DNA of 64,000 nt from Erythrobacter insulae (GTDB taxonomy: Bacteria > Pseudomonadota > Alphaproteobacteria > Sphingomonadales > Sphingomonadaceae), in contig NZ_VHJK01000001.1 of assembly GCF_007004095.1 (NCBI RefSeq), forward strand, positions 562,501 through 626,500, given 5' to 3'. The position numbers were made by a program, and so were the translations under genes. Below, piece by piece: positions 31,154 to 42,742 of this stretch. Numbering within the stretch: position 1 is the stretch's first letter; each line of letters starts with the position of its first letter. The notes beneath the pieces were generated by a model, which worked only from the letters and a program-made list of their open reading frames with translations, searched no databases and had not been told where the DNA came from.

Positions 31154-32401
31154 TTAAGCTTTGGAGCGTGTTCCGATAGGTATGACTTCACCACGAGCCG
31201 CGCCGTCACTGGCGCAATAGATTGCCCAATCCGCCATAAGCCGCCGCCGTTTGTCGAATAGGTCGCCGCGTCGATAGGCCCTCTCGACCTTGTTTTCGAT
31301 AGTGTGGGCCAACGCCATTTCGGCAACCTCATGGGCATAGCCGGTGCATTCGGCTGCCCAATCGCGAAAGCCAGAACGAAAGCCGTGCACGGTCGCATCG
31401 ACCTTCATACGGCGCATGAGCATCGACATGGCCATGCCGGAAAGCTTGCCGCCTTGCGGGCCGGGAAATAGATAGAGGCTGCCAAGTGGCTCTAGACTTT
31501 CGAGGATGGCAACTGCGCGGGGAAGCAGTGGAACGCGATGCTCTTTCGCAGCCTTCATGCGCTCGGCTGGGATCGTCCAGATTCCCTTTTCCAGATCCAC
31601 CTCTGCCCAAGTCGCGCCAATCACCTCACCAGAGCGCGCAGCGGTGAGAATCGTATATTCCAGTGCCAGCGCTGCCACCGCTTCCCGCTCGTGAAGTGAA
31701 CGGACGAATGCTGGAATCTCTTCATAGGGGAGCGCCTTGTGATGCCCGCGCGATAGGCGAGTGCGAGCGGGGAGGATTTGCGCAAGGTGCCCGCGCCAAA
31801 GCGCTGGGTTTTCCCCTTGGCGATAGCCGCGCGCCTTGGCGCTATCGAGCACGGTTTCAATGCGCCCGCGAATGCGGCTGGCAGTCTCGGGCTTTTCTTT
31901 CCAGATCGGCTCGAGGATTTTGAGCACATGTGCCGTTTCAACCTCGGCAACTGGCAAATCCCCGATCACCGGATAAACATAGGTGTCGAGCGTATTGCGC
32001 CATTGCTGGCGATGCTTGGGGTTACGCCAGCTTCCCTCGTTCGCAGCGATATAGGCGGATGCTACGTCCTTGAACGTGGTTCCAGCCACCTTGGCAGCCT
32101 GAGCCGCCGCAAGCGCTTGCGCGGCCTCCCTATCCCTTTCCTCAATCGGATCAATGCCCGCCTTTACCTTGAGGCGCAGCGCCGCCGCTTCATCGCGTGC
32201 ATCAGCAAGCGACATGCCGCCTTGCCCAGCCGCGCCCAAGCCACCGTCCCGCGACTTGCCATTGAGCATAAACCGAAAGACCCATGAGCGCGCGCCGGTC
32301 GGCTTCACCAGCAAATGCAGCCCGCCACCATCGCCATGGCGTCCCGGCTTGGCATTCTTGACCGCTAGTGGAGTGAGAGCGTTGTGCAGTTTGCGCGGCA
32401 T
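31154..32401 (-). CDS. Tyrosine integrase with DUF4102 arm-binding domain (element 1)
   Basis: This 415-residue integrase has the N-terminal DUF4102 domain (LTPLAVKNAKPGRHGDGGGLHLLV) and core SAM-like and catalytic domains. Catalytic residues seen are Arg in TAARSGEVIGATW, His-x-x-Arg in VHGFRSGFRDW, and Tyr in KVERAYRRGD, with HT from ALAHTIENK. It is adjacent to the second att copy (32620) and points away from it, as expected for the element's own recombinase. Confidence 0.92.
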   Translation of the reverse strand: MPRKLHNALTPLAVKNAKPGRHGDGGGLHLLVKPTGARSWVFRFMLNGKSRDGGLGAAGQGGMSLADARDEAAALRLKVKAGIDPIEERDREAAQALAAAQAAKVAGTTFKDVASAYIAANEGSWRNPKHRQQWRNTLDTYVYPVIGDLPVAEVETAHVLKILEPIWKEKPETASRIRGRIETVLDSAKARGYRQGENPALWRGHLAQILPARTRLSRGHHKALPYEEIPAFVRSLHEREAVAALALEYTILTAARSGEVIGATWAEVDLEKGIWTIPAERMKAAKEHRVPLLPRAVAILESLEPLGSLYLFPGPQGGKLSGMAMSMLMRRMKVDATVHGFRSGFRDWAAECTGYAHEVAEMALAHTIENKVERAYRRGDLFDKRRRLMADWAIYCASDGAARGEVIPIGTRSKA

Positions 32402-32630: not shown

Positions 32631-32790
32631 CCTATACCATCCCAAGAGATCCCAGAAAGTTCCTGAAAGCCGCAGAATTCTGAGGTTTTTCGGACTTGCA
32701 TCGGAATCTCTAGTTCTTATTTTGTTCTAACCCTTCCCACACTTTCTACCAACAATTGTGGGAGCAGATGTGGGAAGAGAACGAGGATGG

Positions 32791-33945
32791 ATGGCTATGG
32801 GAAAACTTTCCGCTGCTCAGATTCGAGCTCTCACTAAACCGGGCCGCTACATGGATGGCGATGGCCTATCGCTGCTGCTCACCGCCCCAAAAAAGGGGTA
32901 TTGGGTGCTGCGCGCGACCATAAACGGGCGCCGAAGGGACATCGGCCTAGGGCCACTAGACTTAGTTACCTTGGCTGAAGCCCGCGAACTCGCGATCGAC
33001 ATGCGCCGCGATATTCAGCGAGGCATTGATCCGATCGAAGAGCGCAAGCGCCAGAAAATCGAAATCCTCACGTTCAAGGCTGCTGCAGAGAAGGTCCACA
33101 CCGAGCAGAAAGCAACCTGGAAGAACGGCAAGCACCAGGATCAGTGGATCAGCACGCTGGAAACCTATGCCTTCCCAAAGCTTGGCGACAAACTCGTTAA
33201 CGACATCGAGGGACCGCTCATCCGTGAAGTGCTTCTCGATTTCTGGCTGGAGAAGCCAGAGACGGCTCGCCGGGTAAAGCAGCGGATAGGCGTTGTGTTG
33301 GATTGGGCATACGCAAACGGAATGCGCGCGACCGAAGCGCCAATGCGCTCGCTGAGCCGCGCACTGCCACGACAGCCGAAGCAGGACGGCCATTTCGCTG
33401 CGATGCCCTACGAGGATGTTCCGGAATTCCTCGAGCATCTGCACAAGCGAACGAGTGTCGCACGGCTCGCGCTTGAATTCCTGATCCTAACTGCCTCTCG
33501 ATCGGGCGAAGTGCGGGGTGCTAAATGGGCGGAGATCAATCTGGACGCAAAGCTCTGGACTGTCCCTGCGGAGCGGATGAAGGCTGGAAAGGAACACGTG
33601 GTACCGCTGACCGATGCGGCAATCGGCGTGCTCGAACGTGCCAGACCTTACTATGCCGAATGCAGTGATCTGGTCTTTCCCGGTCGCAATGTCCTGCGCC
33701 CCCTGTCCGACATGACGCTGCTCAAGGTCCTGCGTTACGCGAAGTTGCCCTTCACCGTTCACGGCTTTCGATCTGCGTTCCGAGATTGGGTAGCAGAGAA
33801 GACCAGTTATCCCGGCGAGGTGGCGGAAGCGGCACTAGCCCATACGGTCAGCAACAAAGTGGAGGCCGCCTATCGGCGTACCAACTATCTGGACAAGCGG
33901 CGAGAGCTGATGCGCGAGTGGTCAGATTTCTGCGCTGGAAGGTAA
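32791..33945 (+). CDS. Second DUF4102-type tyrosine integrase
   Basis: The 384-residue protein resembles the first integrase: DUF4102 start (MGKLSAAQIRALTKPGRYMDGDGLSLLL), catalytic Arg in ASRSGEVRGAKW, VHGFRSAFRDW, and Tyr in KVEAAYRRTN. The ATG at 32791 has GAGG upstream; a GTG 11 codons earlier is also in frame. It directly follows the shared att copy, so it probably belongs to a second element lying to its right whose other end was not found in this window. Confidence 0.9.
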   Translation: MAMGKLSAAQIRALTKPGRYMDGDGLSLLLTAPKKGYWVLRATINGRRRDIGLGPLDLVTLAEARELAIDMRRDIQRGIDPIEERKRQKIEILTFKAAAEKVHTEQKATWKNGKHQDQWISTLETYAFPKLGDKLVNDIEGPLIREVLLDFWLEKPETARRVKQRIGVVLDWAYANGMRATEAPMRSLSRALPRQPKQDGHFAAMPYEDVPEFLEHLHKRTSVARLALEFLILTASRSGEVRGAKWAEINLDAKLWTVPAERMKAGKEHVVPLTDAAIGVLERARPYYAECSDLVFPGRNVLRPLSDMTLLKVLRYAKLPFTVHGFRSAFRDWVAEKTSYPGEVAEAALAHTVSNKVEAAYRRTNYLDKRRELMREWSDFCAGR

Positions 33946-34055: not shown

Positions 34056-34760
34056 ATGAAAATGACATACTCACAGTTTGATCCTGCTTCTCAACACCGA
34101 GTGCCTTGGAACTTTGGCGCTAAGATCGGTCCAAAGCGTCCACTCAATCAGAAGCAGATCTGGGCGATCCGTTTCTTCTTAGATCGAGAAGAGCGCGTTC
34201 GAGATCGAGCGCTGTTTGACTTGGCGATTGATAGCAAGCTGCGAGGCTGTGACCTAGTCGAGCTGAAGATCGGTGATTTGGTTAGTGGTCCAGAAATTAG
34301 GACACGGGCGACAATCACGCAGCGCAAGACGGGCAAACCTGTCCAGTTCGAGATTGCGGCAGACGCGCGTTCAAGCCTTTTCGCTTGGCTGCAACTCAGA
34401 GGCGGGGACGTCGAGGACTTCGTCTTTCCGAGCCGTGTTGATCACACACGCCACTTGAGCACGCGACAATACGCTCGGCTTGTTGATGAGTGGGTTGCGG
34501 CCATCGGCCTGCGACCGGAGGAGTACGGCACCCACTCCCTTCGCCGAACCAAGGTCTCGATCATCTACAAAGCCACCGGCAACATTCGGGCGATCCAAAT
34601 CTTGCTGGGTCATTCCAAGATCGAAAACACGGTCCGCTACTTGGGCGTAGATATTGAGGATGCACTCACTCTTGCAGAAAAACCGAAATCTAACCGCCGG
34701 CGGACGCCAGCTCTTGGCTCGCTGGCGTCCGGCTTTGCTTCAGCATGGCAGAAATTCTAG
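34056..34760 (+). CDS. Short tyrosine recombinase without N-terminal DNA-binding domain
   Basis: The 234-residue enzyme has a compact catalytic domain: Arg in DSKLRGCDLVELK, HSLRR near residue 167, LLGHSKIENTVRYLGVD with the tyrosine near residue 195. The short N-terminus has no separate core-binding domain. Recombinases of this size occur singly in alphaproteobacterial genomes and plasmids. The C-terminal 20 residues are encoded by a strong inverted repeat (34701-34731). A ribosome site GGCCGAGGAG precedes the ATG. Confidence 0.85.
   Translation: MKMTYSQFDPASQHRVPWNFGAKIGPKRPLNQKQIWAIRFFLDREERVRDRALFDLAIDSKLRGCDLVELKIGDLVSGPEIRTRATITQRKTGKPVQFEIAADARSSLFAWLQLRGGDVEDFVFPSRVDHTRHLSTRQYARLVDEWVAAIGLRPEEYGTHSLRRTKVSIIYKATGNIRAIQILLGHSKIENTVRYLGVDIEDALTLAEKPKSNRRRTPALGSLASGFASAWQKF
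34701..34731 (+). terminator. Hairpin inside the 3' end of the short recombinase gene
   Basis: CGGACGCCAGC at 34701-34711 pairs with GCTGGCGTCCG at 34721-34731 over 11 bases around a 9-base loop, followed by TTTGCTT. It may terminate transcription or form part of a recombination site. Confidence 0.45.
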
Positions 34761-35749
34761 AACCGGAAGCCCACGCCCGCACCGCCAAAGAGGTCGGCAC
34801 TGTTGTCGTTGAGGCCCGTCCCGCCATAAACGGTGAGACTGATGTTCCGGCTTACCCGCATACTGGCCCAACCCGATACCTCGCTGGATGCTTGCCTGCC
34901 TGCGAAAGCTGATTGCTGCCAGAAATAGTCTGCGCCCACACTGACGCCATCTCCGGCGCGCACACTCGCACCGCCGCCTGCTCCCCATGTCGACCGGATC
35001 GTCGAGCCTTCCGGTTTCCCGGCGAACTTGCGACGACCATGGACGTAGAAGGTCATCGGGCCGACCACCTGCACAAGATCCGCGCTCAACGTGACATCGA
35101 CTTCGCCTGTACCAAGTCGATCAGCGCGAGACGCCGTCGGAAGTTTCACTTTCACCTGCGGCTCGAAATATGTGCCCTTGGTAAGTTCGAAGGAATACAC
35201 CGCCGAGACATTCACATCGCCAAGACCGCTGCGGCGTTGATCGGGACCGGCAAAGCCGTCCTCATCGACGATATCGTCATCGTCGATCACATCATCATCG
35301 AGGTCGTCTTCCACCTCGATATCGTTTCCGCCAGACCCAGAACCGGAACTGCTGGAGCCCGAGCCGGAATTATCGCCGTCTCCGCCGCGTCCACGGCCTC
35401 TACCGCGACCCTGCCCCGATCCGCTGTCGCCAAAGAAGGCGTCGCGTCCCTCAGGCGTTGCGAGCAGCGAGCCGGGGCCGTCGATAGTCACCCAAGGTAC
35501 CGAAACGCGGACCCTCAAACCATCGTTCTTGTAAGTCAGGCTGATTGGTACAGCGATGACTTCGGTGTCCTCAAGCTCACCATAGTCACCGCTTGAATAG
35601 CTGATTCCGGTGTTCAGGCGGAAGCTTGCCGCACTGCTGGATTTGTTCTCTTGGTCCGCTTGAGCTTCATCCTGTGCGCTGACCGGCGTTGCAACCAGAA
35701 ATACTCCTGCTGAAGCTACGCATAATGCGGTTCTTACTGAAATTTTCAT
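34757..35749 (-). CDS. Exported outer-membrane beta-barrel with acidic/RG-rich insert
   Basis: The 330-residue protein starts at ATG 35749 (GAGGGG upstream; the GTG three codons earlier is less likely) with a signal peptide ending VSAQDE. The rest alternates short beta strands and ends GGAGVGFRF, an aromatic C-terminus typical of outer-membrane barrels. Residues 110-175 form an unusual low-complexity insert of RGRGRGRG followed by Ser/Gly and then a stretch of more than ten Asp/Glu. The RG motif recalls the next secreted protein. It may be read through from that upstream gene. Function unknown. Confidence 0.75.
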   Translation of the reverse strand: MKISVRTALCVASAGVFLVATPVSAQDEAQADQENKSSSAASFRLNTGISYSSGDYGELEDTEVIAVPISLTYKNDGLRVRVSVPWVTIDGPGSLLATPEGRDAFFGDSGSGQGRGRGRGRGGDGDNSGSGSSSSGSGSGGNDIEVEDDLDDDVIDDDDIVDEDGFAGPDQRRSGLGDVNVSAVYSFELTKGTYFEPQVKVKLPTASRADRLGTGEVDVTLSADLVQVVGPMTFYVHGRRKFAGKPEGSTIRSTWGAGGGASVRAGDGVSVGADYFWQQSAFAGRQASSEVSGWASMRVSRNISLTVYGGTGLNDNSADLFGGAGVGFRF

Positions 35750-35810
35750 TCGTGACACCCCTCACAGTCTTTTTCTTTGAATCTGCATGTTCATTTCACG
35801 TGTGGCAAGA

Positions 35811-35859: not shown

Positions 35860-36456
35860 TCAATCGCTTGAGGGACTATTGTCTCCTCCGCGCCCACGCC
35901 CGCGACCCTCGCCAGGGGTGTCGGCGGCTGAATCGCTGTCATCGACGCGATCCGCCAGATCGTCTGAATTGCCTCCTCGTCTGCGACCGCTATCCGACCG
36001 GTCATCGCCGCGCCGGTCATCGTAGCGCTTGTCATCACGCTCCCGGCTGCGACCACCGCGATCATCGCCCGGTGCGTCATCGCGTCCGCGCCCGCGACGG
36101 ATGTGATCGGGGCCGTCGTCCGCTCCCCGACCACGGCGCATATCCCCCGGACCGTCATCGGCGCCTCGACCGCGGCGCATGTCGCCCGGTCCGTCATCAG
36201 CGCCACGGCCACGACGCATGTGTCCGGGGGCGTCATCTGCTCCGCGCCCGCGGCCACGGTCATCATATCCGCGCCCCTCACCGCGATCGCGAACGCCGCG
36301 ATCTTGGTAGTCCCGGTCATCAGTCCGATCTTCACATCCACGGCACTCGCGCATCTCACGATCGCGGTCCGGCTTGGCGACAACCGGGCCTCCGGTGAGC
36401 ATGGCGGCACCGATTGCGGCACATGCTGCCAGCTTCAAGCTCCTGTGTTTTTGCAT
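35860..36456 (-). CDS. Secreted RG/RD-repeat low-complexity protein
   Basis: The 198-residue protein has a signal peptide (AAIGAAMLTGGPVVA-KP) and then almost only Arg, Asp and Gly. Between about residues 65 and 130 it has four to five copies of a 13-residue unit RGRGADDGPGDMR, with small changes such as APGHM and PDHI. Arg and Asp counts nearly balance. Such polyampholytes may condense or bind polysaccharide or metal; this is inference. The start is the ATG at 36456 with GGAGAAG upstream. An ECF-type promoter lies at 36501-36525. An open frame on the same DNA (35796-36422) is rejected as a shadow. Confidence 0.75.
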   Translation of the reverse strand: MQKHRSLKLAACAAIGAAMLTGGPVVAKPDRDREMRECRGCEDRTDDRDYQDRGVRDRGEGRGYDDRGRGRGADDAPGHMRRGRGADDGPGDMRRGRGADDGPGDMRRGRGADDGPDHIRRGRGRDDAPGDDRGGRSRERDDKRYDDRRGDDRSDSGRRRGGNSDDLADRVDDSDSAADTPGEGRGRGRGGDNSPSSD

Positions 36457-36500
36457 TTTCTTCTCCGTTGCTTACGGGTTCGTTGCTCGAACTGCATGAC

Positions 36501-36525
36501 AACGGAGCGATGCGGAGCTTATTCC
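36501..36525 (-). promoter_or_regulatory. ECF-type promoter for the RG-repeat gene
   Basis: On the minus strand GGAATA is followed after 15 bases by CGTTGTC: GGAAT at 36525-36521, CGTT at 36504-36501, 45 bases before the start codon. It matches the three other sites at 37816, 37889 and 42718. Confidence 0.75.
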
Positions 36526-36540
36526 GCGCTCCGCTAAAAA

Positions 36541-37284
36541 TTATTCCGGAGCCCACCCATTGCGCATGATCTGGCTTTCCTTTTCCACCGCCAAGGGATC
36601 GCCCGCATCAAGTCGGTCATAGGCTTCGTCAAGGCTTGACGGGCCGTCGCTGCCAGCCAACGCGATTTCGCTGCTGTCGGGTATGTCGACAGCATCATCG
36701 CTCCACGCTTCGATCTTCCAACCGCTCGTTGAACGGCAAGCAATGCCTGAAGATTCTGATTGTGCAGTCGCATAGGTGAACTCTCGGCAAAACCGACCAT
36801 CGCCGGCTTCGAAGGTCAAAATCGGGCTGAGCGTTTCGCCATCGCCAAGCGAAGCGAGTTGCCCCGATGGCGTAGCTTCAAGCGCATCCCCAAATCCGGG
36901 CGGCCCGGCGCCGGGTAGTGCAAATGTCAGGACCAAGGCGAGGCACGCAGCTATCGCCGCTCCGGCTCCGACTTGCCACCGCTTCCAGAACGGCGGGTTG
37001 TCATTGGCTGGCTCCGGGGAGGCATGTCGATTGTTTGCTGGCGGTGAAGCGGCTGCCGCCTCTGCCAATCCCATTCGGGCGAGAAACGCGTCGTCGATGC
37101 CGTGCCCCTCATCAGTCGCCATCGCTTGTCGCAACAAATCATCGTTGGACGCGAACCGTGCGACCACATCGGCGAGCTCAGAATCGGCCTCAAGCTCGTG
37201 TTCAAACTGGAGCGCTTCCTCCTCGCTCATCGCACCATCAAGATAGGCAGCGATCCTCAGGTCGCGTTCGTTCTGACCGCTCAT
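36541..37284 (-). CDS. Transmembrane anti-sigma factor
   Basis: The 247-residue protein has an N-terminal anti-sigma domain (residues 1-70) with the pattern RDLRIAAYLDGAMSEEEALQFEHELEADSELAD, a ChrR/RskA-type helix bundle that binds sigma region 2 and 4. A transmembrane helix follows at about residues 105-122 (VGAGAAIAACLALVLTFALP) and a C-terminal periplasmic domain. It should hold the sigma factor inactive until a periplasmic signal or cleavage. The start codon overlaps the sigma stop (ATGA), typical for such pairs. Confidence 0.85.
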   Translation of the reverse strand: MSGQNERDLRIAAYLDGAMSEEEALQFEHELEADSELADVVARFASNDDLLRQAMATDEGHGIDDAFLARMGLAEAAAASPPANNRHASPEPANDNPPFWKRWQVGAGAAIAACLALVLTFALPGAGPPGFGDALEATPSGQLASLGDGETLSPILTFEAGDGRFCREFTYATAQSESSGIACRSTSGWKIEAWSDDAVDIPDSSEIALAGSDGPSSLDEAYDRLDAGDPLAVEKESQIMRNGWAPE

Positions 37285-37802
37285 TGCGCCATCTCCCCGT
37301 TGACCTGCTTATCGATGGATCGCCGCGCACGGGCTATCCTGCTCATCACTGTCCCGATAGGGATTTCGAGCATCTCGGCTGCGTCCTTGTAGCTCATCCC
37401 GTCCAGCACAACGAGCGTGATGAGAACGCGCTGATCCTCTGGCAAAGCAGCCAATGCGCTGCGGGCAAGTGCCAGATCGGATCGCCCCTCCAGGACCTGA
37501 ACACCGTCAGCGCCGACCACGCCGAACGCTTCGTCCATTTCGACATGGACACCACGTGTCTGGGCTTTTCGCCCTTCATCGATCCAGATGTTCTGTGCGA
37601 TCTTGTACATCCAACTATCCAGTTTCGAACCCGGCAGAAACTGCTCTGCGCGGCTCAAGGCTCTTTCGACAGTCGACTGGCAAAGATCGTCGGCGATCTC
37701 CTGCCTGCGGGTGAGCGCGAGGCAGAACCTTCGCAGGCGCGGCAAGACATGAATAATTTGCTGACGCAAATCGCCATGTCCCGTTGTGCCGTCCCCTGTC
37801 AT
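37281..37802 (-). CDS. ECF-type RNA polymerase sigma factor
   Basis: The 173-residue protein has sigma region 2 (LPRLRRFCLALTRRQEIADDLCQSTVERALSRAEQFLPGSKLDSWMYKIAQNIWIDEGRK) and region 4 (LAALPEDQRVLITLVVLDGMSYKDAAEMLEIPIGTVMSRIARARRSI). It lacks regions 1 and 3, as in ECF sigmas. A promoter matching the module's consensus lies only about 14 bases upstream of its ATG, so it is probably autoregulated and has a very short leader; the ribosome site GGGAGAG fits in it. It is divergent from the protease gene. Confidence 0.92.
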   Translation of the reverse strand: MTGDGTTGHGDLRQQIIHVLPRLRRFCLALTRRQEIADDLCQSTVERALSRAEQFLPGSKLDSWMYKIAQNIWIDEGRKAQTRGVHVEMDEAFGVVGADGVQVLEGRSDLALARSALAALPEDQRVLITLVVLDGMSYKDAAEMLEIPIGTVMSRIARARRSIDKQVNGEMAQ

Positions 37803-37815
37803 TTTCTCTCCCGAC

Positions 37816-37840
37816 TACGCAATCGCAGGCCGTTTATTCC
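37816..37840 (-). promoter_or_regulatory. ECF-type promoter for the sigma factor gene
   Basis: GGAATA, 15 bases, CGTAGTC on the minus strand: GGAAT at 37840-37836, CGTA at 37819-37816. It is close to the start codon (14 bases), so transcription would start within about 10 bases of it. Confidence 0.6.
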
Positions 37841-37888
37841 CCAGCATCGCGCATAATACAAATTTTCCCAAGATCAGGCGGTATTCAG

Positions 37889-37913
37889 GGAATAGCACCG
37901 AGGATTGTGCGTT
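37889..37913 (+). promoter_or_regulatory. ECF-type promoter for the subtilase gene
   Basis: GGAATA, 15 bases, CGTTGTT on the plus strand: GGAAT at 37889-37893, CGTT at 37910-37913, 35 bases before the start codon at 37949. Confidence 0.75.
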
Positions 37914-37948
37914 GTTTTCGGATGATATAGGTCACTAGCAGAAGAAAA

Positions 37949-39427
37949 ATGTCTGAAAACAAGCGTTCTTTGAGGCTCTTTCTAGGAGGGATGTGTGCTG
38001 CAGCCTTGGCGGTTGGCAGTGCGGGCGTCCTTTTGGCCGAGCCCGGTAGCGGTCAAGATCGCGAGCGCGACGATGCCGACCGTGCCACACGCGCGCTTGA
38101 ACGCGCCGAAAGGGATGCAACACGAGCGGCCGAACGCGCGGCCCGTGACGAAGCGCGCTATATAGAAGATCGTGCTGAAATCATGGAGCGCGGCGCAGAC
38201 GATCCAGAACGCCAGCAGCGCGATCTTGCCCGGCTTGAAGAGGATCGCACCGAAACTGCTGTAAAAGCCCAGGAAGAGGCAATCAAAGACGCAGAAGAAC
38301 TCGCTGAAGAGCTCGCCAAGGCACAGGAAGACGCCGCCGAGGACGCAGCAGACCGCGCGGAAGAGGCCGCAGAATACGGCAACAGCGCCGAATTGCGCGG
38401 CTTGGCAGCCGATGAAGCACCTGAGTTTGACGAGCGCGGTTTTCCTGTGAGACGCGGCGAAATTGTGGGCCTCAGCCTAAGCGATGCAGAGCTTGAAAGG
38501 CTTCAACAATCAGGGTTTGAGGTTCTGGCTAAACAGGACTTGCCGGCGCTTGGCAACTGGCTTCACCGTCTCAAGACTCCCGTAGGTGTGGATGCTCCCG
38601 CAGCGTTGCGGGTCGCGCAGCGAACGGAACCGGATGCAGTGTTTGATTACACCCATTACTACGGGCTCCACTATGCGCCATCGGGCAATCAAGCCACTGC
38701 GAAAGGGGCAACTCTTCCTCGAAAAGAGGGAAGACTCATGATCGGAATGATCGACACGGCGATCGTGAGTCATCCTGCGCTTTCCGGCGTGTCGATAACC
38801 TCGCGTGATTTCGCCAATGCCAGCGGAATTACGAAAGCGCACGGGACAGCTGTGGCATCGATCCTCGCAAGTGAGGGGACCCGCAAGCTCTACATTGCCA
38901 ATATCTTCAGAGGGCGCGGCACGAAGCCTTACACCTCCGCAGACAATATCGTGGCTGCACTTAACTGGATGGTCACGCAGAATGTTCCGGTAGTGAATAT
39001 GAGCCTGGCTGGACCGCGGAATGCGATCCTCGACCGCTTGATCGAGCAGTCTGTGGGGCGGGGCACCCTGATTGTCGCAGCAGCGGGCAATGGTGGTCCG
39101 TCAGCACCTCCAGCCTATCCGGCGGCCCTTCCCCCTGTCATCGCAGTAACGGCCGTTGACCAGCGCAATCGGGTGTATCGCTACGCCAATCAGGGCAACT
39201 ACATCACGGTCGCCGCGCGGGGTGTTGACGAGCCCGCCGCAAGTTCGCGCGGCGGAATCGTCAGATTTTCCGGAACCAGCTTTGCGACCCCACATGTCGC
39301 TGCGTGGATGGCGCGCTGTCAGGCCCGTCGCTCTGCGCAGTCTTGTGCGCGTCAGCTCAGACGCTCCGCTCAAGACCTTGGCCCCAAAGGCTATGACAGC
39401 GTCTATGGATACGGTCTGATCGAATAG
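37949..39427 (+). CDS. Exported subtilisin-like serine protease (S8) with coiled-coil prodomain
   Basis: The 492-residue protein has a signal peptide (GGMCAAALAVGSAGVLLA-EP), then a long Glu/Arg/Ala-rich helical region (about residues 35-145) with coiled-coil character, a small domain (residues 160-215), and the peptidase. The catalytic triad is Asp269 in GMIDTAI, His298 in KAHGTAVAS, and Ser444 in FSGTSFATPHVAA. An Asn in AAAGNGG completes the oxyanion hole. The gene is divergent from the sigma factor and has its own ECF-type promoter. It may cleave the anti-sigma factor or process the RG-repeat proteins; neither is shown by sequence alone. Confidence 0.88.
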   Translation: MSENKRSLRLFLGGMCAAALAVGSAGVLLAEPGSGQDRERDDADRATRALERAERDATRAAERAARDEARYIEDRAEIMERGADDPERQQRDLARLEEDRTETAVKAQEEAIKDAEELAEELAKAQEDAAEDAADRAEEAAEYGNSAELRGLAADEAPEFDERGFPVRRGEIVGLSLSDAELERLQQSGFEVLAKQDLPALGNWLHRLKTPVGVDAPAALRVAQRTEPDAVFDYTHYYGLHYAPSGNQATAKGATLPRKEGRLMIGMIDTAIVSHPALSGVSITSRDFANASGITKAHGTAVASILASEGTRKLYIANIFRGRGTKPYTSADNIVAALNWMVTQNVPVVNMSLAGPRNAILDRLIEQSVGRGTLIVAAAGNGGPSAPPAYPAALPPVIAVTAVDQRNRVYRYANQGNYITVAARGVDEPAASSRGGIVRFSGTSFATPHVAAWMARCQARRSAQSCARQLRRSAQDLGPKGYDSVYGYGLIE

Positions 39428-39429
39428 CA

Positions 39430-39462
39430 AAGGGCGGCAAGGCTGTGTGCCTCGCCGCCCTT
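39430..39462. terminator. Bidirectional hairpin terminator
   Basis: AAGGGCGGC...GCCGCCCTT pairs over nine bases, with extra pairing of AGGC and GCCT inside, between the convergent subtilase and glycosyltransferase genes. A run of weakly T-rich sequence borders each side. Confidence 0.7.
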
Positions 39463-39478
39463 CCCGATTATCGCCGGA

Positions 39479-41299
39479 TCAGAAGTGGAAACCGAAACCG
39501 AAGAGCACTGGCTGAAGCCCAAACAGGCTCGCGCTTCCCAACATCACGCTTCCCACGATCAGCGCAAACGGGATCATGGTGCAGAAGCGGAGCACCTTTT
39601 GGTTCCATCCCAGGCCATGCAGATATGGCTGCATCAGAAACGCCAGAGCCAGTCCGGCAAAGGCGGGCTGGAAGCTGACAAAAGCGGCGGCGAGAAACAG
39701 CGCGCCTGCGACGATCTCGAAGCTCCATGTCGCCATCGAATCCGGGTGCGTTTCGGAGAGATAGCGATTGATGGCTGACCCTTCCTTGCTTGCTGTGTTC
39801 GCATGCCCTTTGACGTCGCCTGTCACGAGGAACCGCGCCTTGCCGGTCAGGCCATAGCCAGCGACGCAAACGGCGGACAAGGGGCTAAGCGCGGCGTACA
39901 GCGCCGTGCTGCGTGACAGGAACCTCCACAGGCGAAGCGGCTGCTTCCAATGTTCAAGAATGAAGCAGAGGATCGGTGCAAACAGCGTGAGCACTGTGAT
40001 CGCGAAGAAGTCCGGCGTAAAAATGCTGGTGAGTTCAGGCGGCAAGAGCCGGACCGGCACTGACATTTCCTGACCGGCAACCACCCAGGTCAGCTCCTGT
40101 TGCTGGCCAAGCACGAAAGGCATGCCCAATCCCGCAATTAACATGAATATAAAGAAGAAGAAGGTGAGCGGAAGATTAGCCGTAGGGAACAAGATATCCA
40201 GCTTCTCAATCAACGGTATCTTACGTGACCGGATCAGCGGCATGGTCCATTTGTGCAGGAATTCGCATGTGCCGCGCGTCCATTTGACGTGGCGCACCCG
40301 GAAAGCGCGAACGGTCTCGGGAAAAGCCTCGGTGCACACAACATCCTCGGCGAATACCCCGTAATAGCCCCGCTCGCGGATGGAGATTGCGTAAGCGAGG
40401 TCCTCACTGACGATCTCGTCAAATCCGCCGACTTCTTTCCAGCAGCCGCGCCGCAGCAGTGCACCATGGCCCAGGAACATCACGAAGCCGAATTTGTTGC
40501 GCAGCGGCTGATACCACTTCCAGTGAACATCGATGCCGATCCGCATGTCTTCCTGAAGCTGGGTGCTGGTTTCCTCCTCGCAGCGGTGATTGGCCTGCAC
40601 GAAGCCGCATTCGGGATCGTTTTGGAGATAGGGCATAAGCTGGCGCAGGAAGCCAACTGGCAGGATTTCGTCGGCATCGACCACCGCGAAATATGGTTCG
40701 CGAACGTGATTGGTCAGCGCGTGGTTGAGATTGCCCGCCTTGAAGCCGGTGCGATGCTCGCGCCGGATGACTTTCACTTTCTCCGGGTTCTCCGCGGCAA
40801 AGGCATCGACGATGGCCTGATATTCAGGATCACTGGAATCATCGAGCAGGTAGAGCGTGAAGTTCGGATAATCGACTTCGAGGCAGCTTTGCGCACTGGC
40901 TCGCACGAAATCGTTGCAGGTCGTGTAAAGCATCGCGACCGGTGGCTGGGTCGTCGAAAGGATCGGATCAGGCTTCGTCACGAAGTTGCGATAGATCGAT
41001 GCGAACAGCACCACGCCAACATTGTAGAGGCCATACAGCCACGCAACCGGCGTAAAGAACGCGAAATATCCAAGGATAAATCTCGCTGTCCAAGTCTCGG
41101 CGGAGAGCACGAGATCGATGAGACGCGGGCCAAACCAGATCAGGCTGGCTGTCCAGGCGCCGAATATGAACAGGAAAAGCCAGGGCTTGCGATCATCGGC
41201 AGACCAGACTTTGTCCGATGTGAATTGCTCTGGCGGACCAGCTATGATGACGTCGGTATCATCGTTTTGCGTGGATTCTTGAATGCGGCTGAGAAGCAT
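39479..41299 (-). CDS. Cellulose-synthase-like family 2 glycosyltransferase
   Basis: This 606-residue membrane enzyme makes a polysaccharide from a nucleotide sugar and likely passes it through its own membrane channel. Two helices precede the catalytic domain (residues 40-100) and five or six follow (from about 360). GT2 motifs are DDSSD (Asp153-154), DAD (208-210), SED (298-300), and RHVKW-TRG near 336-343, a variant of the QxxRW motif. No PilZ domain is present, so cyclic-di-GMP control by that route is unlikely. It follows the TPR/barrel gene by 11 bases as a second gene of an operon. The sugar is not known. Confidence 0.88.
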   Translation of the reverse strand: MLLSRIQESTQNDDTDVIIAGPPEQFTSDKVWSADDRKPWLFLFIFGAWTASLIWFGPRLIDLVLSAETWTARFILGYFAFFTPVAWLYGLYNVGVVLFASIYRNFVTKPDPILSTTQPPVAMLYTTCNDFVRASAQSCLEVDYPNFTLYLLDDSSDPEYQAIVDAFAAENPEKVKVIRREHRTGFKAGNLNHALTNHVREPYFAVVDADEILPVGFLRQLMPYLQNDPECGFVQANHRCEEETSTQLQEDMRIGIDVHWKWYQPLRNKFGFVMFLGHGALLRRGCWKEVGGFDEIVSEDLAYAISIRERGYYGVFAEDVVCTEAFPETVRAFRVRHVKWTRGTCEFLHKWTMPLIRSRKIPLIEKLDILFPTANLPLTFFFFIFMLIAGLGMPFVLGQQQELTWVVAGQEMSVPVRLLPPELTSIFTPDFFAITVLTLFAPILCFILEHWKQPLRLWRFLSRSTALYAALSPLSAVCVAGYGLTGKARFLVTGDVKGHANTASKEGSAINRYLSETHPDSMATWSFEIVAGALFLAAAFVSFQPAFAGLALAFLMQPYLHGLGWNQKVLRFCTMIPFALIVGSVMLGSASLFGLQPVLFGFGFHF

Positions 41300-41310
41300 C
41301 TGGGCCTCCG

Positions 41311-42690
41311 TTAATTGCGAGGCAGGCGCAGGGTCACGCCAACCAGAACACGAGTGAAATCAACCAGCGGAGTTTCCTCACGCGCAACGTTTAGGTGCAC
41401 GCGGTGCCATCCCCCGATGCGGGCTGATGCGTTGCCGTAGATGGTGAACACACCGCCATCGGCGGCCGGATTGATGCTTGAAACATCGCCACCGCCAATG
41501 CCGACACCGAGTGCGACATCTCCGGTGTTGTATTCACCGTACCCGACAACGCGCCATTCATCGTCACGGGTCGCACCGGTCCGGGCGAGGTAAACACTCG
41601 GCTCGAACGAGAAGCGATCGCTAACGCGGAAATTGTGACCGGCGTAGATCAGCTGATCGGTGAAACCTTCGCTGTGCGGGCTGAGCTGGCCGCCAAGCTT
41701 CGAGGCGCCAAGATCGGAAAGGTAGACCCCTTCAAGCTTGTACACCTGCTGATTTTCACCGAGCGGCAAATCGCGATAGCCGAATTCTGCCGAACCGATG
41801 AAGCTGTCACCGAACTGATGCAGACCGCCGACAAAATAGGTGGTGGCGTTCTGTCCCGTGCGTGCGAGCACAGGGTTGTCGAGCGAAAGGCCATCGTCAT
41901 AGCGTGCCCAGATGCGGGTTTGGGGCGTTACCCAACTCGCTGCTTCCACCATTCTCAGGCCAGCATCGCCGCCACCAGATGTGTCGCCAGCCCAGACCGA
42001 AAGTTCCGCTATTGCGGGATAGTCATAGGCCCGGCGCAATCCGCTTCGCACTTCTGTAATGCCCGGCTCGATTGCTTTGGCCTGCCGGAATGCCTCGGCT
42101 GATCGGCGCGCCTGCCCTTCGGCAATGCGCGCGTTGCCGACGCCAATCCATGGTTCTGCGTCCTCGGGAAACTCATAGGCGATCTGCTGAAATGCGTTGG
42201 CCGCTCTCTCATTCTCGCCTGCCCAATAGGCATTGTAGGCAAGACCTTTTTTCGCCCCTTCACTGTCAGGAGCAATAGCGAGCATCCGCTCGAAGTACTG
42301 CTCGGCCAAGCCGTGTTTGCCGGACCATGCGGCGATATATCCCGCAGCGTTGAGAACGGAGAGATCATTGGGCGCAAGCCCCAGCGCCCTGTTGATGTCC
42401 GCTTCCGCGCGGGTCCATTCTTTCTGCCAGCCATGTGCGGTCGCGCGCCCAACAAGCGCATTCAAATTGTCCGGATCACGGGCGAGCACATTGCTCCAGG
42501 CGGCGACTGCCTGCTCTGCCTCGCCTGCCGCCATGGCCTGCTCCGCCACAGGCTCCTGAGCAAAGGCGATTGCGGAGGATGTGAAGACGACCAATGCAAC
42601 CGCGCTCATCAGGCCGAGCCGGATGCTGGTCCTTTTCGCGTCGCTTTTTGGCGGACGCTTGGTTTCGATTGTTTGCGTCATCTGTGTCAC
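41311..42690 (-). CDS. TPR protein with YaiO-type outer-membrane barrel
   Basis: The 459-residue protein has a signal peptide (AVALVVFTSSAIAFAQ), TPR units at about residues 50-190 (for example AWSNVLARDPDNLNALVGRATAHG and DLSVLNAAGYIAAWSGKHGLAEQYFERMLAIAPDSEGAKKGL), and a C-terminal beta-barrel (from about 220) with short beta strands and an aromatic/polar end, resembling YaiO-type barrels. TPR plus barrel is the layout of polysaccharide export proteins such as BcsC, PgaA and NfrA. Here it likely exports the product of the next gene. It has an ECF-type promoter at 42718-42742. Confidence 0.82.
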   Translation of the reverse strand: MTQMTQTIETKRPPKSDAKRTSIRLGLMSAVALVVFTSSAIAFAQEPVAEQAMAAGEAEQAVAAWSNVLARDPDNLNALVGRATAHGWQKEWTRAEADINRALGLAPNDLSVLNAAGYIAAWSGKHGLAEQYFERMLAIAPDSEGAKKGLAYNAYWAGENERAANAFQQIAYEFPEDAEPWIGVGNARIAEGQARRSAEAFRQAKAIEPGITEVRSGLRRAYDYPAIAELSVWAGDTSGGGDAGLRMVEAASWVTPQTRIWARYDDGLSLDNPVLARTGQNATTYFVGGLHQFGDSFIGSAEFGYRDLPLGENQQVYKLEGVYLSDLGASKLGGQLSPHSEGFTDQLIYAGHNFRVSDRFSFEPSVYLARTGATRDDEWRVVGYGEYNTGDVALGVGIGGGDVSSINPAADGGVFTIYGNASARIGGWHRVHLNVAREETPLVDFTRVLVGVTLRLPRN

Positions 42691-42717
42691 CCCTTTTGAC
42701 CAATTGTCTCGGGCGAC

Positions 42718-42742
42718 TACGGAGTGGCGGTGAGATTATTCC
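42718..42742 (-). promoter_or_regulatory. ECF-type promoter for the glycan operon
   Basis: GGAATA, 15 bases, CGTAGTC on the minus strand: GGAAT at 42742-42738, CGTA at 42721-42718, 27 bases before the start codon of the TPR gene. It shares CGTAGTCG with the sigma factor's own promoter. Confidence 0.7.

Follow-up and report, generated by a model that had tools for sequence, protein, structure and literature searches.

A probable local ECF26-type sigma factor regulon in Erythrobacter insulae and the spacing of its promoter-like sites

We analyzed a window of 64,000 nucleotides from Erythrobacter insulae (contig NZ_VHJK01000001.1, positions 562,501 to 626,500) containing a gene for an extracytoplasmic function (ECF) sigma factor and, close to it, genes for an anti-sigma factor, a divergent subtilase and an arginine/glycine (RG) repeat protein, as well as an operon for a TPR-barrel protein and a GT2 glycosyltransferase. 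Very probably, this module is a self-contained regulon of the ECF26 type in which one sigma factor serves local targets. We favor this reading because the promoter-like sites of the module match the ECF26 consensus, the same sites are present in five relatives, an excess of them is found only in same-genus carriers of the sigma factor, and there is little or no excess outside the module. A sequence pattern thereby becomes a complete and testable small regulon within ECF26, with a divergent protease and a gene content suggestive of a role at the cell surface or in the matrix.

Scanning the window for GGAATA and CGTWGT separated by 14 to 16 bases returned four sites, all with a 15-base spacer (N15) and all followed directly by C or T:

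37814..37840, minus strand: GGAATA-N15-CGTAGT, before the sigma factor gene; in 6/6 orthologous loci it lies at -38/-39 relative to the start codon
37889..37915, plus strand: GGAATA-N15-CGTTGT, before the subtilase gene; GGAATA 85 to 88 bases from the sigma start codon in 6/6 orthologous loci
36499..36525, minus strand: GGAATA-N15-CGTTGT, before the RG-repeat gene; the equivalent gene has its site in 6/6 orthologous loci
42716..42742, minus strand: GGAATA-N15-CGTAGT, before the TPR-barrel/GT2 operon; also present in loci L006 and L078

An earlier sequence-only reading had reported four sites with one pattern and one spacer length on the correct strands, and this observation is confirmed: the window holds exactly these four, dinucleotide shuffles of it gave a mean of 0.02 matches, and none of 100 shuffles reached four or more. 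The places given were right, with 25-base spans that ended at CGTW where the whole block takes 27 bases. Similarly, the 14 to 45 bases given as the distance to the start codons are fair if counted from CGTW and become 11 to 42 when counted from CGTWGT (sigma 11, subtilase 33, RG gene 42, and TPR gene 25 bases).

The same reading had proposed that it would fail if such sites were equally frequent inside coding regions across the genome. In the whole genome (2,986,343 bases in three contigs), spacers of 14 to 16 bases gave five exact matches against three for the reversed pattern, and four of these five are the module sites. The fifth lies antisense within an open reading frame (ORF) of 445 amino acids (aa), which we take to encode an S41 peptidase, and a near-identical 27-mer is present in genome G111, which would fit a shared coding stretch. 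Allowing one mismatch added 10 further matches, compared to 20 for the reversed control. Since four of the five exact matches belong to the module and the one-mismatch matches stay below their control, the four sites are clearly distinct from the background, and the strict motif does not mark a large additional regulon. Because the motif was itself derived from these four sites, the independent evidence comes from sites at the same places in relatives and from the published ECF26 consensus.

The site ahead of the sigma gene (37814..37840) would imply autoregulation. Between its -10 box and the start codon lie 11 to 12 bases in 6/6 orthologous loci (37803-37813 in the window), and a G-rich stretch is kept there in all six. 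At the experimentally mapped promoter of the Sinorhizobium meliloti protease gene SMa0142, GGAATA-N15-CGTTCT, transcription starts on the seventh base after the block (PMC6180224). If the sigma gene behaved in the same way, a leader of about 5 bases would be predicted for its transcript, with most of the G-rich stretch lying upstream of the start, judging from this one mapped promoter.

Conservation of the sites and their link to the sigma factor

Searching 198 relatives with the sigma factor gave a match at an E value of 1e-25 or better in 56, with identities of 96% in genome G088, 77% in G050, 75% in G078, 69% in G115, 66% in G105, 57% in G116 and about 40 to 50% in many others. The gene order of sigma factor, anti-sigma factor, subtilase, RG-type gene and barrel gene is retained in five close relatives (the RG-type gene of L080 is a DR-repeat gene, identified by reading the ORF). 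Together with the window, the motif precedes the sigma gene in 6/6 loci, the subtilase gene in 6/6 and the RG-type gene in 6/6. The site before the TPR gene is present in all three loci with a readable operon (the window, L006 and L078); L077 reads N at this place and was left out of the tally.

Around these sites the DNA has diverged while the core has not. With 14 pairs for each of the sigma, subtilase and RG promoters (and the near-identical window/L006 pair left out), the ten GGAATA/CGTW core columns showed pairwise identities of 0.94, 1.00 and 0.94, against 0.48, 0.48 and 0.50 for the spacers and 0.51, 0.37 and 0.41 for the flanks. The TPR promoter, with 2 pairs, showed 1.00 for the core versus 0.70 for the spacer and 0.67 for the flanks. 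Furthermore, when GGAATA-N-CGTW was counted in 20 wide loci (348 kb), the 15-base spacer was found 43 times and the 16-base spacer (N16) 21 times, while the 13 other spacings between 9 and 23 bases together gave 12 matches. It is therefore highly improbable that the sites reflect chance or the shared ancestry of nearby DNA and have no promoter role. This explanation can draw on the definition of the motif from the same four sites, but it is opposed by the shuffles and reversed controls, by a core that stays constant while spacers and flanks diverge, by the spacing histogram and by the match to the mapped ECF26 promoter.

The motif also follows the sigma factor across genomes. Among 114 same-genus genomes, the five with an orthologous sigma factor hold 18 exact matches (1 for the control, which is the reversed pattern) and the other 109 hold 8 (control, 28), giving a Fisher p of ∼2e-7 for the tally of the exact motif by sigma presence. 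When the window's own genome is taken out, the counts are 13 versus 0 in sigma carriers and 8 versus 28 in the rest. We infer from this association and from the conserved positions that the four sites are promoters of the window sigma factor.

Several points weigh against this reading. Part of the core identity is due to selection, since the orthologous sites were located by a motif scan, and the constant positions are the stronger fact. The tail of the -10 element, WGT, is poorly kept in the orthologous sigma promoters (identity 0.43), which read CGTATT, CGTTCT or CGTTTG, so that the strict CGTWGTY of the sequence-only reading was over-specified. The TPR promoter is known from three loci, and the TPR/GT2 operon was not found beside the sigma gene in two relatives, L079 and L080. 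The same genome also carries an EcfG-like sigma factor with a NepR-like neighbor gene, which might read some of the sites as well, and in S. meliloti 27 of the 40 RpoE6 targets are shared with RpoE2 (PMC6180224).

The EcfG-like gene and the overlap of RpoE6 and RpoE2 targets lend some weight to the idea that the sites are real promoters belonging to the general stress sigma factor EcfG and not to the local ECF26-type sigma factor, as does the close form of EcfG promoters, with AAC at -35 and CGTT at -10 (PMC8103513). We nevertheless give this idea only a small chance, since the excess of exact sites is limited to same-genus carriers of the local sigma factor (18:1 versus 8:28) and the -35 element here is GGAATA, not GGAAC. 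EcfG would also be expected in the genomes without an excess of the motif.

Outside the module there is little or no excess of sites. In six genomes (the five same-genus sigma carriers and G115, from another genus), GGAATA-N15-CGTW matches 51 times, 22 times in the module and 29 times elsewhere; the latter compares to 23 for the reversed control, and the regulon is therefore mainly local. Some of the sites outside the module may be real: L080 has one before a glycosyltransferase operon adjoining the module, L079 one before the gene for a P-loop protein, L120 one close to a gene for a UDP-sugar dehydrogenase, and L118 one before the gene for a small secreted-looking protein. Two extra exact matches in G078 lie before this L118 gene, whose product has 127 aa, with no similar site at the homologue of this gene in G050 (L172), and inside an ORF that is presumably priA (L119).

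Gene products and targets

The module comprises the following genes:

37281..37802, minus strand: ECF sigma factor, 173 aa, ECF26-like (Pfam Sigma70_r2 and r4_2; 42% identical to RpoE6 of pSymA)
36541..37284, minus strand: anti-sigma factor, 247 aa, with a 4-base overlap with the sigma gene (weak NCBIfam anti-sigma match under the cut-off; aligns with EcfR6)
37949..39427, plus strand: subtilase of family S8, 492 aa, encoded divergently from the sigma gene (Pfam Peptidase_S8, 96.9 bits)
35860..36456, minus strand: secreted-looking RG/DDGPGD repeat protein, 198 aa (tandem repeats; equivalents in five relatives)
34757..35758, minus strand: outer-membrane barrel-like protein, 333 aa, behind the RG gene (Pfam Phenol_MetA_deg, 27.5 bits, cut-off 22)
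41311..42690, minus strand: 459-aa protein combining TPR with a 14-strand barrel, similar in fold to BcsC (Pfam TPR; AlphaFold2 model)
39479..41299, minus strand: GT2 glycosyltransferase, 606 aa, resembling cellulose and poly-N-acetylglucosamine synthases (Pfam Glyco_tranf_2_3; best NCBIfam match CelA)

The sigma factor has the domain composition of the ECF class, with Sigma70_r2 at residues 18-81, Sigma70_r4_2 at 113-162 and no region 3 domain by Pfam. Its neighbor, for which Pfam and NCBIfam scores are weak and under cut-off, has one membrane span as judged by eye and probably inhibits the sigma factor. A family search returned no NepR match for it up to an E value of 10, NepR being the neighbor that, together with PhyR, marks ECF15/EcfG systems. 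A C-terminal cysteine pair, CRE[FY] ... ACR/K at residues ∼165 to 185 (CREF..ACR in the window), recurs from Rhizobiaceae to Sphingomonadales in 18 of the 20 anti-sigma rows compared, EcfR6 included, and might form a structural disulfide or sense redox state; it is missing from L081 and from L139, where a wrong reading frame had been picked.

The contexts of the catalytic Asp, His and Ser are apparently present in the subtilase, as judged by eye from the translation. The RG protein begins with a signal-like segment and contains repeats such as RRGRGADDGPGDM; it gave no Pfam or NCBIfam match, and the 50 matches of a search for its relatives are of low-complexity type, none with an informative name. 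The barrel gene behind it (63 to 94% protein identity in five relatives) is, from its position, probably an operon mate of the RG gene. The proposal that six to seven genes form one unit under the ECF sigma factor is supported as the best reading, with the barrel gene included by its place and not by a site of its own.

For the TPR protein, the AlphaFold2 model (mean pLDDT of 88.6) shows a superhelix of TPRs leading into a barrel of 14 strands. A fold search with it gave Escherichia coli BcsC as the best PDB match (E value of 1.7e-10; TM score of 0.46 by query and 0.40 by target), and PelBC was also listed. The GT2 protein scored 70.4 bits against the CelA model of NCBIfam (cut-off 699.1) and 59.6 bits against PgaC (cut-off 422.3); scores for the CelA/BcsA and BcsC equivalog models are far under the curated cut-offs, unlike those of a Bcs cellulose synthase. 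Taken together, the modeled TPR-barrel and the GT2 enzyme suggest polysaccharide synthesis and export.

In the mechanism we propose, the anti-sigma factor would hold the sigma factor at the inner membrane until a signal frees it, and RNA polymerase with the freed sigma factor would read promoters of the form GGAATA-N15-CGTW(GT). This would switch on the sigma/anti-sigma operon itself, the divergent secreted subtilase, the secreted arginine/glycine/aspartate repeat protein with its outer-membrane barrel protein, and the BcsC-like export barrel with its GT2 polysaccharide synthase, the operon partners being presumed. The predicted output is an altered cell surface or matrix, a role suggested by the gene families.

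The genes behind such sites differ in other lineages. They code for RTX calcium-binding repeat proteins in L084 (11095-11964, minus strand) and L086 (12128-13024, minus strand), for an ABC transporter within a type I secretion operon in L122 (5137-6957, plus strand) and, in other families, for Ser/Asn-rich and Glu/Ala-rich repeat proteins. A site precedes a low-complexity protein in 17 of the first 20 wide loci, 6/7 in the window clade of the sigma tree described below and 11/13 in the others. Because this pattern came from inspection, a test on 18 fresh loci was declared beforehand; it found a repeat-rich third target in three (L186, L187 and L188), and we rejected such a target as a universal feature; in the same loci, 5 N16 sites precede low-entropy ORFs versus 0.23 at random positions. 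The repeat-rich target is thus lineage-bound and not universal.

This variation raises the question of whether the conserved regulon consists of the sigma factor, anti-sigma factor and subtilase only, the RG/barrel and TPR/GT2 genes being lineage additions of which some are perhaps weakly or not sigma-dependent. Third and fourth targets do vary by lineage, including RTX-type proteins, Ser/Asn or Glu/Ala repeats, the type I secretion operon, glycosyltransferases and a P-loop protein. The RG promoter is, however, present in 6/6 orthologous loci and the TPR promoter in 3/3 with a readable operon, and we consider this narrower regulon rather unlikely.

Small ORFs of 70 to 77 aa with a shared MCPTWK start were also seen behind sites near two subtilase genes (L088, 12158, plus strand; L124, 5044, minus strand). 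Just beyond the module lie three tyrosine-integrase-like ORFs (31154-32401, minus strand; 32758-33945, plus strand; 34056-34760, plus strand). The third, the only one scanned, matches Pfam Phage_integrase, and its homologue is found at the same module end in L006 as two tblastn pieces.

Spacer length in sister lineages

The intergenic regions of 40 loci were scanned for GGAATA-N-CGT at spacer lengths from 11 to 21 bases. N15 was found 22 times, N16 37 times and N12 twice, with no match at any other length, and an N15 or N16 site is present in 33 of these loci. A tree of the sigma factors places the window in a 7-row clade (support 100/97), and a second clade (100/100) unites ten same-genus homologues. 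The 7 loci of the first clade have 24 N15 sites, 1 N16 site and 8 sites with other spacings, while ten second-clade loci (eight from rows of the tree clade, with L190 and L191 added from outside the tree by their alike-looking sigma factors) have 44 N16 sites, no N15 site and 2 with other spacings. Across whole genomes, GGAATA-N16-CGTT gave 13 matches versus 23 for controls in six first-clade genomes and 32 versus 1 in four second-clade genomes, and the exact N15 motif has no match in the latter four. A P-loop protein of G115, which has a first-clade sigma factor and an N15 site before this gene, shares 48 to 54% identity with eight proteins of second-clade genomes whose genes follow N16 sites.

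These counts raise the tentative possibility that this sigma family inherits a specificity code in the form of spacer length: two sister lineages of one genus would share the GGAATA/CGT core but differ, almost without exception, by 15 versus 16 bases, and the spacer of a shared target would follow the sigma factor of its genome. If true, a one-base change of spacing through a whole regulon would separate two systems. The split offers a natural experiment for studying how ECF sigma factors gauge the distance between promoter elements. ECF sigma factors are described as stringent on spacer length, with an optimum of 17 for sigma-H (PMC6411747), and a spacing preference is therefore expected. Our literature search, which was not exhaustive, found no published one-base spacer shift between sister lineages.

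A strict rule is contradicted by four loci outside both clades that mix spacings (L082, L084, L086 and L199), with one N15 and one N16 site within the same intergenic region. It is also contradicted by the S. meliloti and Agrobacterium loci, which have N15 although they stand beside the second clade with weak support (83/83), and by 4 of the 18 fresh loci, which have neither an N15 nor an N16 site. L199 (genome G049) has, together, homologues of the sigma factor (48%), subtilase (45%), anti-sigma factor (37%) and barrel protein (47.5%), with one N15 and one N16 site, and it is possible that it links the window clade with the others.

We rejected the length of the linker between sigma regions 2 and 4 as the cause of the N15/N16 difference, since the anchors lie 74 residues apart in both classes, except for 73 in L081 and 71 in L072, the latter an artifact of the search pattern. 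G115 has a second sigma homologue (L195) with no site at spacings 12 to 19 in its 19 kb, and this genome is therefore no test of N15 and N16 sigma factors in one cell. In the second-clade loci L177 to L184, L190 and L191, N16 sites were seen before a P-loop "NAGKTTT" protein and barrel-type proteins of 326 to 413 aa, and also before a protein that looks by eye like an aspartyl hydroxylase.

Comparison with known systems

The ECF26 sigma factors of S. meliloti have a cross-species consensus of GGAATA at -35 and GT at -10, and the divergent rpoE6/serine protease layout is described as widely conserved in the group (PMC6180224). Both elements of this consensus are present in the window sites, and the divergent S8 subtilase gives the module the arrangement of the RpoE6-like subset. 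When RpoE6 was compared to the window's genome, the window sigma factor was the best of four matches with 140.6 bits, followed at 104.7 by the EcfG-like gene beside the NepR-like gene. In the other direction, a comparison made against plasmid records, RpoE6 is the best S. meliloti relative of the window sigma factor, and the subtilase is 34% identical to the protease of the RpoE6 system. Of 40 loci that carry a sigma homologue, 31 have a divergent subtilase. Among 72,556 plasmid records searched at the protein level, 924 held relatives, and the three plasmid loci inspected (Agrobacterium tumefaciens pAt and two from Novosphingobium) all have the protease, sigma and anti-sigma genes in the same layout.

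The RpoE6/EcfR6/SMa0142 system shares with the window the sigma gene followed by the anti-sigma gene, the divergent serine protease, the GGAATA -35 and CGT-type -10 elements, local targets, the N15 spacer at SMa0142 and the anti-sigma cysteine pair (PMC6180224). It differs in having an RpoD/RpoH-like promoter ahead of rpoE6, whereas the window sigma gene is itself preceded by a GGAATA site, and in a site for ecfR6 inside rpoE6 that has no counterpart in the window (PMC6180224). At the sigma gene's 3' end, ahead of the anti-sigma gene, a site was seen in S. meliloti pSymA (L137, 19455, plus strand) and A. tumefaciens pAt (L138, 6490, plus strand). The third targets are DUF6065-type and Ser/Asn-repeat genes in S. 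meliloti but RG-repeat/barrel and TPR/GT2 genes in the window. RpoE1 and RpoE4 of S. meliloti, which are described as sharing the ECF26 group and the -35 consensus, respond to sulfite and drive sorT-sorU-azu2, while preliminary data indicate that rpoE6 is not induced by sulfite (PMC3511301, PMC6180224). No sulfite-oxidation gene was found among eight module and neighbor proteins scanned with Pfam, setting the module apart from the sulfite type of ECF26.

Among other systems, the GT2 synthase with a TPR-barrel exporter resembles the BcsA/BcsC cellulose and PgaC/PgaA exopolysaccharide machines, from which the window proteins differ in their low family model scores, and no other Bcs or Pga gene is among the ORFs listed near the GT2 gene. 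EcfG/PhyR/NepR (ECF15) promoters share the CGTT-type -10 and GGAA -35 elements, but the window has GGAATA in place of GGAAC, and the EcfG-like gene lies elsewhere in the genome. Our search for papers on ECF26 with Sphingomonadales, RTX or exopolysaccharide, which did not cover most subscription journals or supplements, found none.

Given the consensus, the relation to RpoE6 and the shared layout, the window system is very probably a new member of the known ECF26 kind, and its promoter pattern and gene layout are not new as such. What is new is the set of outputs, a repeat protein with a barrel and a BcsC-like barrel with a GT2 synthase, together with the lineage spacer rule that we tentatively propose.

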